Assembly (NCBI GenBank): GCA_903885195.1
Contig: CAISHQ010000127.1
Location: 1 to 39,945 of the forward strand
Source of the DNA: an uncultured Pseudomonadota bacterium
GTDB taxonomy: Bacteria > Pseudomonadota > Gammaproteobacteria > Steroidobacterales > Steroidobacteraceae
Length of the DNA stretch: 39,945 nucleotides
Reading direction: 5' to 3'
The stretch's first letter is position 1. Each line of letters begins with the position of its first letter. The notes beneath the pieces were generated by a model. It searched no databases and was not told the DNA's origin. It saw only the letters and a list, made by a program, of their open reading frames with translations. Both the position numbers and the translations under genes were made by a program. Positions 26,440-32,542 of this stretch are shown piece by piece.

Positions 26440-27302
26440 CGGGGCTGCAGCGGCGGCTGCGCGAGTATGTGCTGCTGACTCGCCTCGATCGGCCGATCGG
26501 CATCCTGCTGCTGCTGTGGCCGGTGCTCTGGGCTCTGTGGCTTGCCAGTGACGGCGTGCCGGAACCGAAGCTGCTCGTCATCTTCGTGCTCGGCACCGTG
26601 CTCACCCGCTCGGCCGGCTGCATCGTCAACGATTTAGCCGATCGTGATTTTGATCCGCACGTCAGTCGCACGCATTCGCGGCCACTCGCCGCGCGCCGCG
26701 TCTCACCGCACGAGGCAGTCGCGTTGTTCGTGGTGCTCTCGTTACTGGCCTTCGCCCTCGTCTGGCAACTCGATGCCCGCACGATCGCGCTGTCGGTGAT
26801 CGCCATCGGCCTGATGCTGTCGTACCCGCTCTTCAAGCGCTTCTTCCCGGCACCGCAGGCCTATCTCGGCATCGCCTTCGGCTGGGGCGTGCCGATGGCC
26901 TACATGGCAACACAGGGGACGATCCCGCTCGAAGGCTGGCTGCTGTTCGTTGCGGCGGTGGCGTGGGCGGTGATCTACGACACGTTCTACGCGATGGTCG
27001 ACCGGCCCGACGACCTGAAGCTCGGACTGAAGTCGACGGCCATCCTGTTCGGCAAGGCGGATCTCGTCATCGTCGCGCTGTGTCAGCTCGCCATGCTCGC
27101 TGTACTCGTGTTCGTTGGCGTTCGCCGTGGTCTTGATGCGTACTATTTCATCGGACTCGCCAGTGCTGCCGCGCTGTTCGCTCGGCAACTGTGGAGCAGC
27201 CGGCAGCGCGAGCCCGGCGCCTGCTTCAAGGCCTTCCTCAACAACAACTACGTCGGCTTCGCAATCTTTGCCGGCATCGCCATCGCCACCGTCCAGCGGT
27301 GA
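26436..27302 (+). CDS. ubiA: 4-hydroxybenzoate polyprenyltransferase
   Basis: Membrane prenyltransferase that attaches the isoprenoid tail in ubiquinone synthesis, 288 aa, with about eight or nine membrane helices. The two Asp-rich motifs are NDLADRDFDPHVSRTHSRPLA (about 66-86) and YDTFYAMVDRPDDLKLGLKS (about 183-202). Its start overlaps the ubiC stop as ATGA. Its last 55 bp are antisense to the end of comF. Confidence 0.96.
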   Translation: MTGLQRRLREYVLLTRLDRPIGILLLLWPVLWALWLASDGVPEPKLLVIFVLGTVLTRSAGCIVNDLADRDFDPHVSRTHSRPLAARRVSPHEAVALFVVLSLLAFALVWQLDARTIALSVIAIGLMLSYPLFKRFFPAPQAYLGIAFGWGVPMAYMATQGTIPLEGWLLFVAAVAWAVIYDTFYAMVDRPDDLKLGLKSTAILFGKADLVIVALCQLAMLAVLVFVGVRRGLDAYYFIGLASAAALFARQLWSSRQREPGACFKAFLNNNYVGFAIFAGIAIATVQR

Positions 27303-28003
27303 AGATCGACTGCAGCGCCGAACGCGGTGGCGGCAGCCTGCAACGTCGCCCCGGTGGTCAGCACGTCATCGAGCAGCAGGATGCGTAGGCGCGGCGACGT
27401 CGACGCAGGAGGGCCCAACGCAGGCTCGGTCAACGCAGCCCTCGCGAGTGCGCCGCAGCCGCGCGTCGAGAGCGCGAATGCCCCCTGCACGTTGCGACGA
27501 CGTTCGGGCGCCGGCAGCGAAGTCTGCGCGGCAGTGTCGCGGCTACGCAGCAGCCACTGCTCTTGTAACGGCACGCCCAGCCAGGCGGCGAGTTCACGCG
27601 CCAAACGACTCGTTTGGTTGAAACCGCGCTCACGCAGTCGCTGCCCATGCAGCGGCACGGGCACGATGCCATCGACCGCAACTCCATCGAGTGCGATGCG
27701 CGCCGCACACAGCGCACCGAGCACCCGTGCCGGTCGTAGGTCGCCGTGGAATTTCAGGGCGCGAAGATCCTCATCGATAGGCGATTGGTAGGCGAACAGG
27801 GCTCGTGCCTCGCGGTCACCATGGCCGCCTGCGGGCAACCACGGCAGGGACGTCAGACAGGCTTCGCACAGATCAATCGCCCCGAGATCGCCCCGGCCAC
27901 CGCAATACACGCAGCGGGCGCTTATGCAGAAGAAGGTCCAGCGCCGTCCGAAAGACAGTGCGGAGCTGCGGCAGCGCAGCCAGTTAGCGACGTCACCGCC
28001 CAT
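27248..28003 (-). CDS. comF: ComF family amidophosphoribosyltransferase-like protein
   Basis: ComF-type protein, 251 aa, needed for DNA uptake in competent relatives. An N-terminal zinc motif (CVYCGG and CEAC) is followed by a PRTase domain with [18 protein letters not shown] and the PRPP loop [14 protein letters not shown] (about 205-218). The start is uncertain: the ATG at 28003 keeps the zinc motif but has no good ribosome site, and it falls within the left half of the BirA-like operator. The frame continues far upstream opposite bioB, which is not coding. The C-terminal 18 codons overlap ubiA tail to tail. Confidence 0.87.
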
Positions 28004-28035
28004 TGTCGACCGATGGCATTCCTGCAAGTTGACAA
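28003..28035 (+). promoter_or_regulatory. BirA-like biotin operator
   Basis: TTGTCGACC (28003-28011), a 15-bp spacer and AGTTGACAA (28027-28035). Each half agrees at 7 of 9 positions with the proteobacterial BirA consensus TTGTAAACC-N14/15-GGTTTACAA, recalled from comparative work. The right half contains the bioB -35 TTGACA, and the left half touches the comF ATG. Its place before bioB fits repression by biotinyl-AMP-bound BirA. Confidence 0.65.
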
Positions 28036-28057
28036 TCTCCCAGCCGTTGCCGACCAT
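28029..28057 (+). promoter_or_regulatory. Probable bioB promoter
   Basis: A perfect -35, TTGACA (28029-28034), a 17-bp spacer and GACCAT (28052-28057), which matches three of six -10 bases. The overlap with the BirA-like operator makes a repressible promoter plausible. The leader to the bioB ATG would be about 75 nt. Confidence 0.5.
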
Positions 28058-28138
28058 CCCGCGCGGCGGCCCGGAAGGCTGCCCGGCAACCGCGTCGGCA
28101 GGCACGGCCCGAAACCCGCGCAAACGACGGAAAACACC

Positions 28139-29134
28139 ATGGCCGCACCCTCCAAGAGCACCACGAACGACCTGCGACACGACTGGACCGTTGACGAGGT
28201 CGAGGCGTTGTTTGCGCTGCCCTTTCAGGATCTGCTGTTCCGTGCGCAGCAACGGCACCGCGAGTATCAGCAGCCGAACGCCGTACAGATGAGCACGCTG
28301 CTGTCGGTGAAGACCGGGGCCTGCCCCGAGGACTGCGCCTACTGCCCGCAAAGCATCCGCTACGACACGGGTCTGGATCGCGAAGCGCTGCTGGCCGTGG
28401 CCGATGTCGCCGAGCGGGCCAAGGCCGCGCGCGATGCCGGTGCCACCCGCTTTTGCATGGGTGCCGCATGGCGCTCGCCGAAGAAGCGTGACATGGAAGT
28501 GATGACGGCGATGATCCGCGAAGTGCGTTCGCTCGGCATGGAAAGCTGCGCCACACTCGGCATGCTGACGCGCGAACAGGCGCAGGAGCTGCGCGAAGCG
28601 GGTCTCGACTACTACAACCACAACATCGACACCTCGCCCGAGTACTACGAGAAGATCATCACCACCCGCGATTTCCAAGACCGTCTCGACACGCTCGAAG
28701 CCGTACGCGAAGCGGGAATGAGCGTGTGCTGCGGCGGCATCGTTGGCATGGGCGAGACGGTGCGCGATCGTGCACGCATGCTGCAGGTGCTCGCCAATCT
28801 GCCGCAGCATCCGGAAAGCGTGCCGATCAACCAATTGGTCGCCGTGCCGGGCACACCGCTCGCCGATCAAGCGCCCATCGATCCGTTCGATTTCGTACGC
28901 ATGATCGCTGTGGCACGCATCCTCATGCCCCGCTCGGCAGTCCGCCTGTCCGCGGGACGCGAGCGCATGTCGGACGAGTTGCAGGCGCTGGCGTTCTTTG
29001 CCGGTGCAAACTCGATTTTCTACGGCGAGAAACTTCTCACTACCGGCAATCCGGACGTCGAGCACGATCGCATGCTGTTGACGCGACTCGGCATGCACGC
29101 CGCGGCCGGAGCTGCCGGTGCGCTGCACGCCTGA
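28139..29134 (+). CDS. bioB: Biotin synthase
   Basis: Radical SAM enzyme that inserts sulfur into dethiobiotin, 331 aa. Cys62, Cys66 and Cys69 (CPEDCAYC) hold the 4Fe-4S cluster; residues of the 2Fe-2S site lie in [19 protein letters not shown] and [11 protein letters not shown], and an Arg in [12 protein letters not shown]. The ATG at 28139 follows GGA and gives a normal N-terminus (MAAPSKSTT). First gene of bioBFHCD, behind a BirA-like operator. Confidence 0.97.
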
Positions 29135-30269
29135 GGCCGTTGCCGCCGCCCTGCGCGACATCGATGCGCGCAACCTGCGCAGGCGACGAGTCCTCGCCGG
29201 CGATGGGCGCGTCAACTTCTGCAGCAACGATTATCTCGGTCTCGCACAGGATCCCCGCGTTGCCGGTGCGATGGCCGATGCGGCACGCCGACTCGGTGCG
29301 GGCTCCGGTGCGTCGCACCTGATCAGCGGCCACTGCGCCGAACACGAGGCTCTCGAGCGGGAAGTAGCCGAATTCATTGGGCGCGAGCGTGCGCTGGTTT
29401 TTTCGACCGGCTACATGGCCAATCTCGGCGTACTCGGTGCGCTGGCCGACCGACGCGACCTGTTGATCGCCGACGAACTCAACCATGCCTCATTGATCGA
29501 TGCGGTGAGGCTCGTCCGCTCACCGCAAAATCTGCGCTACGTGCATGCCGATGCGAACGCAGCCCACGCGCTGCTCGATGCGTACGCGCCGGCGGCGGCC
29601 GCAGAGGGTGGCGGTGCATTCGTCATCACCGACGGCGTGTTCAGCATGGATGGAGACGTGGCGCCACTGCCCGCCCTGGCGGCCGCTGCTCTGCAACATG
29701 CCGCATGGCTCATCGTTGACGATGCGCATGGCATCGGCGTGATCGGCGCCACGGGCCGCGGCAGTTGCGAGCACCACGCGCTTGGCACACGCGAAGTCCC
29801 CGTACTCATCGGCACCTTCGGCAAGGCGCTCGGTACTTTCGGCGCCTTCGTCGCGGGCGATGCCGATGTCATCGAACTGATCCTGCAGCGCGCTCGCTCG
29901 TACATCTACACCACGGCGCTGCCACCGGCGGTGGCGGCAGCCACGCGATGCGCACTCGAGATCGTGCAGACGGAGTCGTGGCGTCGGCAGCATGTGCAGT
30001 CGCTCGTCGAGCGGTTTCGCACGGGCGCACGCCAACGCGGGCTGCAACTCGTCGAATCGGCGACACCGATTCAACCTTTGATTCTCGGCGCTGAAGACAA
30101 GGCGCTCGCGGCCAGTGCGCAGTTGGCCGAAGCCGGCTATCGCGTCACCGCGATCCGCCCGCCGACCGTACCGCCCGGCACCGCACGGCTGCGCATCACG
30201 CTCTCGGCTGCGCACACGCCGGAGCAGGTGGACGGTTTGCTCGCAGCTCTCGAGAGGGCCTGCGTGTGA
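29118..30269 (+). CDS. bioF: 8-amino-7-oxononanoate synthase
   Basis: PLP enzyme joining pimeloyl-ACP and alanine, 383 aa. The PLP Lys is Lys236 in [23 protein letters not shown] (about 201-210) and [11 protein letters not shown] are also conserved. The GTG start at 29118 (GGAG upstream) overlaps bioB by 17 bp. Its stop overlaps the bioH GTG as GTGA. Confidence 0.96.
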
Positions 30270-31048
30270 GCGCCGCACCGCTCGTCATGCTGCACGGCTG
30301 GGCCCTTAACCTGCGGGTGTTCGACGATCTCGCAGCACAGCTGCGTGCGGAGCCGCTGGTGCCGCACCGCGACATCCTGCGACTCGACCTGCCCGGTCAT
30401 GGTCGTGCCGCAGAGCCCGCGAGTCTGTATGGCCACGACGCCGAGGGCGCCTGGGACATCGTTGCCGTAGCACGACACGTGCTCGCACAGTTGCCGCCGC
30501 GGTGCGCGCTACTCGGTTGGTCACTGGGTGCGAAACTGGCGCTGCACATCGCGGCGATTGAACCCGCGCGGATCGAGCGGCTGGCGCTGCTCTGCGCCAC
30601 GCCGCGCTTTGCGCAAGCGCCTGACTGGCCGTATGGCTCGCCCTCGAGCGTACTCGGCGCGTTCGCGGATCATCTGCAACGTGACTACCGACGCACCGTC
30701 CGGGAATTTCTGGAATTACAGGTGCGCGGCAGCGCGAACGCAGACACGGCGCTCGCCGCGCTGCAGGCGGCACTGCTCGCCCAGGGAGAGTGTCCGCCCG
30801 ACACACTGCGCCGCGCGGCACGCATGCTGCACGCCGTCGATCAGCGAGCGGCGCTTCGCGACGTACGCGTACCAACGCTCGTCATCGCAGGTGAATACGA
30901 CAGACTCGTGCATCCGCGAGCCTCGGCAGCGCTCGCGGAGCTGTTGCCCGACGCACGATTCGTGCAGATCGCCAAAGCGGGGCACGCGCCGTTCCTCTCG
31001 CATCCAGCTGAAGTCATCGCCGTGCTGCGCGCATTTCTCGAAGCATGA
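30266..31048 (+). CDS. bioH: Pimeloyl-ACP methyl ester carboxylesterase
   Basis: Alpha/beta hydrolase, 260 aa, that removes the methyl group from pimeloyl-ACP methyl ester. Nucleophile Ser86 lies in LGWSLGAKL, with the acid in IAGEYDRLVHP and the His in KAGHAPFLSHP; LHGWALN near the N-terminus forms the oxyanion region. The GTG start is coupled to bioF. After its stop comes a start-codon repeat leading to bioC. Confidence 0.93.
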   Translation: MSAAPLVMLHGWALNLRVFDDLAAQLRAEPLVPHRDILRLDLPGHGRAAEPASLYGHDAEGAWDIVAVARHVLAQLPPRCALLGWSLGAKLALHIAAIEPARIERLALLCATPRFAQAPDWPYGSPSSVLGAFADHLQRDYRRTVREFLELQVRGSANADTALAALQAALLAQGECPPDTLRRAARMLHAVDQRAALRDVRVPTLVIAGEYDRLVHPRASAALAELLPDARFVQIAKAGHAPFLSHPAEVIAVLRAFLEA

Positions 31049-31085
31049 GCCGCGACGCATGAGCCCTCGACGCATGAGCAATGAC
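31045..31085 (+). repeat. Repeated ATGAGC units at the bioH/bioC junction
   Basis: ATGAGCCGCGACGC (31045-31058), ATGAGCCCTCGACGC (31059-31073) and the partly matching ATGAGCAATGAC (from 31074). The first ATG overlaps the bioH TGA and opens MSRDA, stopping at TGA 31060-31062 on the second ATG. The second and third ATG are both in the bioC frame. Confidence 0.85.
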
Positions 31086-31796
31086 CCGCAAGATGACGCA
31101 CGCATCGAGCTGCTCTCGCGGCTCGAGCATTTCGCGCTGCAGCCGCGCACAGTGCTCGATCTCGGCGGCGCCGTCACCGGAACCGACGATCGCGTGTTGC
31201 GAGGGCGCTTTCCACAGGCGCGCATCATCCTCAGCCGCAGTGTTAGCCGCAGTCTCGGCCGCCGTGCAACGGCCACTTCGATCGCGGATGTTGAGCACGG
31301 CGCGCAAGCGACGAACGTCGTCGGCCGACTGCAGCAGTGGTGGAAGCGCCTCGTGCGCAGTGGCGGAGCACCGCTGGAACGCATCACGGCTGAGCCCGAC
31401 GCCCTGCCATTGCCGGATGGCAGCGTGGATCTCGTGCTCGGTCACTGGCTGATGCCCGGTGTGGAGTCGCTCGATGCCGTGCTCGTGGAGATTCGCCGCT
31501 GCCTCGCACCAGGCGGGCTATTTCTTTGGACGAGCGCGGGACCCACGCCCGGCGAGACGTCGAGCCAAGATGCGATCGACATGCACGATCTGGGTAGTGC
31601 ACTCACCCGCGCGGGGTTCATCGAACCGGTGCTCGATGTCGATCGGTATCCGGCCGCGCGTCTCGAGATCATCCATGCCGCAGCGTTCGCGGGCGAAGCC
31701 GTGCGCAACATGCCGGACGAAGTGCTCGTGCCACTCGATTCGCTGCGGCGTCGCCGCGAGCCGATCCCGACGCCACCACCCGGAGAGTCGTCATGA
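31059..31796 (+). CDS. bioC: BioC-like malonyl-ACP methyltransferase (divergent)
   Basis: Class I SAM-methyltransferase-like protein, 245 aa, placed between bioH and bioD where bioC is expected. BioC methylates malonyl-ACP to start pimelate synthesis. The middle aligns in style with BioC: LPLPDGSVDLVLGHWLM, EIRRCLAPGGLFLWTSAGP, then DLGSALTRAGFIEPVLDVD. SAM motif I, however, reads VLDLGGAVTGTDD rather than the usual VLD.G.G.G, the N-terminal helix of BioC is short, and NLALQW is replaced by LGHWLM. Start may be ATG 31059 or 31074. It may be a diverged active BioC or a partner protein. Confidence 0.75.
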   Translation: MSPRRMSNDPQDDARIELLSRLEHFALQPRTVLDLGGAVTGTDDRVLRGRFPQARIILSRSVSRSLGRRATATSIADVEHGAQATNVVGRLQQWWKRLVRSGGAPLERITAEPDALPLPDGSVDLVLGHWLMPGVESLDAVLVEIRRCLAPGGLFLWTSAGPTPGETSSQDAIDMHDLGSALTRAGFIEPVLDVDRYPAARLEIIHAAAFAGEAVRNMPDEVLVPLDSLRRRREPIPTPPPGESS

Positions 31797-32542
31797 GCTC
31801 GGCGCCCAAGGCGGCCCGCCGGCTATTCATCGCGGGCACCGATACCGAAATCGGCAAGACGCACGTAGCCTGCGCGCTGCTCAGGGCGGCGCGTCAGCGC
31901 GGCCAGCGTGTTGCAGCGATCAAACCCATCGCGGCCGGCGCCGAACCGACACCGGACGGTCTGCGCAATGAGGATGCCCTCGCGCTGCTAGCCGCCGCAC
32001 GCGGCCTGCCTGCGGGCACGGCATTCGCTGCCGAGGACTATGCCGAGGTCAACCCTTACTGCTTCGCCGCCCCGGTCTCGCCGCACATCGCGGCGGCGGA
32101 AGCCGGAGTCGAGGTGAACCTCAACCTCATTCGAGCTCTGGCCGACCGGGCCGCCGCCAAAAATGACTGGCTGGTGGTCGAGGGTGCGGGGGGTTGGCGC
32201 GCACCTCTCAGCGACACGGCCTCGATGGCCGACCTCGCAACGACCCTCAGCGATCCCGTTCTGCTCGTGGTCGGCGTCCGCCTCGGCTGCCTCAACCATG
32301 CCGTACTGACCGCCGAAGCGATCCGTCGCTCGGGACTGCCACTCGTCGGCTGGGTCGCCAACCACATCGATCCGCAGATGCCGCGCGTGGCGGAGAACCT
32401 CGCCATGCTGGAGCGTCTGCTCGGCAGCGCACCGCTCGGGGTATTTCCCCACGACCGCTCGGGCGAGGGTACCTCGCAGGCGGCGCTGACCGCATTCGAC
32501 CGCCTGACGGTCGTGATAGAACAAGTCGCGAACCTGCGCTAA
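31793..32542 (+). CDS. bioD: Dethiobiotin synthetase
   Basis: ATP-dependent carboxylase that closes the ureido ring of dethiobiotin, 249 aa. The P-loop GTDTEIGKT is at residues 15-23, the substrate Lys in AIKPIAAGAE, and EGAGGWRAPLSD holds the Mg2+/substrate loop. The start overlaps bioC as ATGA. Last gene of the biotin operon; 78 bp separate it from the DUF2244 gene. Confidence 0.96.
   Translation: MSSAPKAARRLFIAGTDTEIGKTHVACALLRAARQRGQRVAAIKPIAAGAEPTPDGLRNEDALALLAAARGLPAGTAFAAEDYAEVNPYCFAAPVSPHIAAAEAGVEVNLNLIRALADRAAAKNDWLVVEGAGGWRAPLSDTASMADLATTLSDPVLLVVGVRLGCLNHAVLTAEAIRRSGLPLVGWVANHIDPQMPRVAENLAMLERLLGSAPLGVFPHDRSGEGTSQAALTAFDRLTVVIEQVANLR

Follow-up and report, generated by a model that had tools for sequence, protein, structure and literature searches.

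A probable BirA operator in front of bioB overlaps the start region of a divergent comF gene in Gammaproteobacteria

The biotin switch itself is known from Escherichia coli, where the operator bioO overlaps both divergent promoters. According to the account in PMC5438404, BirA bound to bioO represses both transcripts, bioA and bioBFCD, and this known switch serves here as the model for repression of bioB. The published BirA consensus is TTGTAAACC-[N14/15]-GGTTTACAA (as given in PMC545781), and the BirA proteins of beta- and alphaproteobacteria are described in PMC5343134 as having no DNA-binding domain. PMC10268837 describes a class of bidirectional promoters with divergent start points 7-25 bp apart; among those with one -10, a distance of 18 bp between the start points is reported there as the commonest geometry.

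We analysed a stretch of 39,945 nucleotides (the window) on contig CAISHQ010000127.1 from an uncultured member of the gammaproteobacterial family Steroidobacteraceae. Computed here were a palindromic site in front of bioB, its conservation, the bioB promoter, the helix-turn-helix (HTH) of BirA, the disappearance of the site together with the HTH, and the reading of comF through the site. The features are listed in Table 1.

Table 1. Features of the bioB/comF region in the window
Feature	Position	Strand	Remarks
comF, ComF/GntX-type protein	27248..28027	-	259 aa from TTG 28027; in-frame alternatives ATG 28057 and ATG 28003
BirA operator (almost certain)	28003..28035	.	left half 28003-28011 TTGTCGACC, 15-base spacer, right half 28027-28035 AGTTGACAA
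Likeliest comF start, TTG	28025..28027	-	first base inside right half-site
bioB promoter -35, TTGACA	28029..28034	+	inside right half-site
comF Shine-Dalgarno, GGGAGA	28036..28041	-	directly before TTG 28027; -7.3 kcal/mol
bioB promoter -10, GACCAT	28052..28057	+	17 bases from -35; weak
Possible comF -10, GATGGT	28053..28058	-	would share -11/-7 positions of bioB -10
bioB, biotin synthase	28139..29134	+	TIGR00433 408.3 bits, above cut-off
bioF	29118-30269	+	downstream of bioB, overlapping neighbours
bioH-like	30266-31048	+	202.4 bits, just under cut-off of 206.95
BioC-like methyltransferase	31050-31796	+	BioC family weakly, 24.3 bits vs cut-off 184.95
bioD	31793-32542	+	last of overlapping run 29118..32542 after bioB

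The letters TTGTCGACC-N15-AGTTGACAA are found exactly in the window sequence, and the left half pairs with the right half at 7/9 positions. Palindromy alone has little meaning, since 124 positions in the window show an inverted match of at least 7/9 at a spacer of 15. With the consensus halves TTGTAAACC/GGTTTACAA (spacer 14-15) the site agrees at 14/18 positions, at a spacer of 15. The first-pass annotation had seen here the half-site form and spacing of known BirA sites, with a perfect TTGACA -35 within the right half, and both observations are borne out. The left half of the genus, TTGTCGAC, is two positions off the BirA consensus. A BirA-type pattern gave one match in the window and none in 100 shuffles. 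Across the genome of 2.72 Mb, the genus pattern has a single perfect match, the window site, and the next best has two mismatches. When up to three mismatches were allowed in the same genome, the backwards control yielded more matches (27) than the genus pattern (15). Because the control outnumbered the pattern among such weak matches, a second genomic candidate with two mismatches, C135:6600, was taken as chance.

The conservation of the site was determined in two sets of sequences. bioB was searched in 60 genomes, our own included; 42 were above the cut-off and 500 bases upstream of each bioB were taken. The palindrome with spacer 15 (at least 16/18 positions of a motif that was drawn from the same upstream sequences in which it was counted) stands before bioB in 36 of these 42 genomes, our own included, and all 21 members of the genus with bioB have it. 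Six sequences below 16/18 (L024, L025, L040, L041, L047 and L048) were left out of the column count. With a BirA weight scheme, 72 of 80 named loci score at least 14 and 68 score at least 15, compared with a maximum of 15.0, a 99th percentile of 14.4 and a mean of 12.39 in a simulated background of 800 upstream sequences. This test is not fully independent, as the weights were set after the relatives had been seen, the 80 loci are the best of 582, and, judged by their lengths, L060-L063 and L080 are contigs of genomes in the first set (G008, G009, G002, G011 and G024). The 12 loci scoring below 15 (L078, L079, L080, L111, L119, L122, L123, L126, L129, L130, L135 and L139) include both Pandoraea loci, where the site is missing. 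The preservation of the palindrome in relatives is confirmed by 36/42 genomes and by 68/80 named loci at a score of at least 15. At the level of the class, a strict pattern matched 27 of 274 genomes, as opposed to three for the backwards control; 27/274 is not the frequency of BirA control, since the strict pattern leaves out sites with spacer 16. Besides the window's own site, 25 of the 26 class-level sites are located before bioB. A check proposed in the first-pass annotation, for a site before further biotin genes, came out negative at the bioA and birA of our own genome, whose upstream regions scored at best 12.4 and 11.9, near the background mean. This bioA (G000:C71:14791-16056, L186) lies apart from the bio operon.

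Regarding the bioB promoter, TTGAC in the right half is followed 16-18 bases on by NANNNT in all 68 named sites scoring at least 15. The -11 A and the -7 T are among the best-kept positions of the bioB -10 in relatives, and the commonest -10 in the genus is GAACAT. A stricter scan for consensus promoters on both strands of the operator region called none, because GACCAT has only 3/6 bases of TATAAT. In the bioB leader, GGCTGCC and GGCAGC-like repeats occur at 28074-28105 and in the same region of several genus members, where they might form a hairpin; the leader also contains a partly conserved AGGCTG.

The BirA protein of our own genome (G000:C26:882-1901, 340 aa) carries HTH_11 at residues 6-57 together with BPL and BPL_C according to Pfam, and it aligns to E. 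coli BirA (PDB 1bia) over residues 9-336. The N-terminal helix-turn-helix that was to be looked for in this genome is present. Hence neither of the two findings that the first-pass annotation had named as speaking against an operator, a BirA without a DNA-binding domain or an unconserved palindrome, was obtained. A search of the same 60 genomes for BirA found it in 32 of the 36 with the site (not in G001, G005, G008 and G016), and in all 32 the alignment extends to residue 10 or closer to the N-terminus. Among the proteins tested with Pfam, the HTH was confirmed in our own BirA and in that of G030, and elsewhere it was judged by the start of the alignment; a single TGA occurs in each of four alignments, and that of G059 is cut at residue 119. 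Six bioB-bearing genomes have no good site. In four of them, G037, G038, G047 and G052, BirA has no HTH, and the site was lost in every bioB-bearing genome with such a BirA (4/4; L178, L179, L181 and L180, respectively). In the fifth, G041, BirA has diverged and gives no HTH_11 call. The sixth, G030, has kept the HTH, yet its site is degenerate, which makes it a counter-example to the pairing of HTH and site. Among the genomes with BirA found, site and HTH are associated (Fisher p = 2e-4 with kinship ignored), a value that overstates the association because relatives are not independent. G037, G038, G047 and G052 are order-level relatives, and the losses amount to about three separate lineages, since G037 and G052 belong to one genus.

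The manner of the loss is informative as well. G037, G038 and G052 have lost the left half and retain an intact promoter, TTGACA...AATACT; upstream of bioB in G047, a promoter of this type was not found. Loss of the left half with retention of TTGACA would be expected if the left half existed only for BirA. The lineages with HTH-less BirA can be regarded as a natural experiment, in which the repressor half-site is gone and the half containing the -35 stays in three of four genomes. On the sequence evidence, it is almost certain that the palindrome serves as a BirA operator for bioB, and as such it is an ordinary, textbook and widely conserved switch. We put the probability that BirA controls bioB at roughly 90%. 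Binding of BirA in the window organism would follow the known scheme: when biotin is plentiful, BirA with biotinyl-5'-AMP would dimerise, bind to 28003-28035 and cover the bioB -35, and RNA polymerase would be unable to start bioBFHCD. When biotin is scarce, BirA would be consumed as a ligase and the operon would be on.

The less ordinary aspect of the locus is its overlap with comF. The product of the window gene resembles the ComF/GntX family (TIGR00201, 67.9 bits; GntX NF008616, 77.5 bits) and stays below the curated cut-offs of 233.55 and 304; a Pfam search at E 0.001 assigned no family. The former label "competence-type" can be kept as a family resemblance, not as an assignment by curated cut-offs. 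Counting our own, the genus has 20 loci with comF; in every one of them the comF match and the site are separated by a multiple of three bases, and the comF frame is open through the operator. In the 19 loci where a CxxC was found, the first one lies at 11 different distances from the site. As the frame is kept in 20/20 loci despite these 11 distances, translation of comF starts at or beyond the left half. In one further genus member, G016 (L026), the operator before bioB is present, no comF match was found and the region in the comF frame has stops.

Most likely, judging from the codon and its Shine-Dalgarno sequence, the start of comF is TTG 28027. A TTG at this position (site+24) occurs in 13 of the 20 genus loci with comF, and its Shine-Dalgarno has a mean strength of -8.45 kcal/mol (range -11.7 to -3.0) in these 13, compared with a mean of -2.36 kcal/mol for 3546 other start codons of the same loci, 3.6% of which equal the -7.3 of the window. 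ATG 28057 (-2.5 kcal/mol in the window) is kept as an alternative start with a weak Shine-Dalgarno. An ATG at this position (site+54) is in frame and open in 14/20 loci, including all seven without the TTG at +24, and it is unusable in the other six (five out of frame and one followed by a stop), all of which have that TTG. ATG 28003 was ruled out as the start, being present in 3/20 genus loci with comF and having a weak Shine-Dalgarno (-2.4 kcal/mol). The first-pass annotation had the left half touching the comF ATG. An ATG does lie at 28003-28001 on the minus strand, but it is not a conserved comF start. As comF is read right across the operator, the overlap is in fact deeper than was supposed.

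Outside the genus, the overlap takes a more regular form. A divergent comF match is present at 49 of the 72 named loci with a site scoring at least 14 and not at the other 23. The codon whose final base is also that of the left half is ATG, GTG or TTG in 24/49 loci with comF as opposed to 1/23 without (p = 1e-4), and this edge start codon is in the comF frame in 21/49. Of the 26 class-level sites besides the window's, 22 have a divergent comF, and at 14 of these (14/26 sites, 14/22 with comF) the left half-site's edge is where a full-length comF of 232-242 aa begins. The 14 edge starts, one of them a GTG, read Met-Val-Tyr or Met-Val-Asn, with residues 2-3 encoded by the half-site. No full comF start lies at the left-half edge in the remaining 8/22, and in the window the left-edge start is also absent, the start having moved. 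Two loci with no comF match found deserve mention. At L199 (G285) the frame that opens with the half-site ATG has a stop after 13 codons, yet it still encodes MVYKWL, as though a gene had been lost and its start kept by the operator. L198 (G169) reads MVYKWL too and stops after 13 codons; it is near a contig end, with only 97 bases beyond the site.

A possible generalisation, to which we give slightly less than an even chance, is that in many Gammaproteobacteria the operator is the comF start region: the spacer holds the Shine-Dalgarno, and the left half encodes residues 2-3. BirA would in this way have a second, inherent target in comF, by which biotin status is coupled to a DNA-uptake-type protein. 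The genus of the window would then represent a rearranged version, with the start at the right half-site or beyond. The recurrence of the overlap in the class is a modest new variant of an operator that is itself ordinary. A literature search for comF with biotin or BirA, covering titles and the openings of abstracts, brought up no description of a BirA site at comF, which does not imply its absence from print; a search by the letters of the operator returned mostly unrelated papers. The sharing of bases between a regulatory site and the start of a protein, in many genomes of one class, is a clean example of its kind, and the overlap offers a concrete, inexpensive way to find out if a ComF-type gene is part of the biotin regulon.

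If comF starts at TTG 28027 with its Shine-Dalgarno, the comF transcript must start to the right of 28041. Read on the opposite strand, the bioB -10 could give a comF transcript from approximately 28046, and BirA would sit on its first transcribed bases. The predicted start points, approximately 28064 on the plus strand and 28046 on the minus strand, are 18 bp apart. By analogy with the described bidirectional promoters, bioB and comF perhaps have a bidirectional -10 in common. With the ribosome-binding site and the start codon of comF in or beside the operator, bound BirA may block comF; repression of comF by BirA is plausible from this position, though we hold it only tentatively, a little on the doubtful side of evens.

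Just as tentative is the opposite view, which contests only the comF part, that the operator controls bioB alone and that the overlap merely reflects a compact divergent pair with comF unregulated by biotin. In G037, BirA lacks the HTH, the operator is lost and comF still overlaps the bioB promoter, so the overlap alone is no proof of regulation. In line with this view, a conserved comF promoter element was sought and none was recognised, and 28/49 named loci and 8/22 class-level loci with comF have no full comF start at the left-half edge. In contrast, where the start codon lies exactly on this edge (21/49 in frame and 14/22, respectively), BirA would cover the start of the comF transcript.

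Two other explanations concern the palindrome itself. It might be bound by a regulator other than BirA, as the left half TTGTCGAC departs from the canonical TTGTAAAC; the match to the BirA consensus, the location of nearly all other class-level sites before bioB and the loss of the site together with the BirA HTH make this very improbable. Slightly more improbable still is that the palindrome is kept as code for the N-terminus of comF and not as a protein-binding site. The frame open across the site in 20/20 genus loci would suit this explanation, as would the bases at offsets -1 and 23 beside the half-sites, which are fixed while their opposite partners are not. However, in these 20 loci the third-codon positions of both half-sites are invariant, whereas variation is seen at every codon position of the 15-base spacer. 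Its mean entropy is 1.52, 1.43 and 1.46 bits at positions 1, 2 and 3, without codon-position bias, and the comF residues encoded by the spacer therefore look unconstrained. Moreover, the site is kept without a comF match in G016 and at 23/72 named sites, and outside the genus comF is read in other frames relative to the site. A BirA operator thus remains the preferred reading of the palindrome.

Compared with known systems, the site has nearly the same letters as BirA sites predicted in Geobacter and Desulfovibrio, for example TTGTcAACC-[N14]-aGTTgACAA before bioB of Geobacter sulfurreducens (as listed in PMC545781). It differs from these in its spacer of 15 and in its divergent gene, which is birA in Desulfovibrio according to the same source. 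The predicted spacing of 18 bp resembles that of bidirectional promoters and would suit a comF leader that begins just before the Shine-Dalgarno, with the caveat that every NANNNT -10 has the same symmetry and that the spacing here is a prediction. A comF family gene (comFC/gntX) divergent from a biotin gene is also described for Serratia and some other bacteria in PMC5438404; unlike here, the partner there is bioH, which is stated in that source not to be under BirA in E. coli. As in E. coli bioO, a single BirA site is located between divergent genes. Unlike in E. coli, bioA is found elsewhere without a detectable site, the divergent partner is comF, and the reading frame or start region of comF contains the site.
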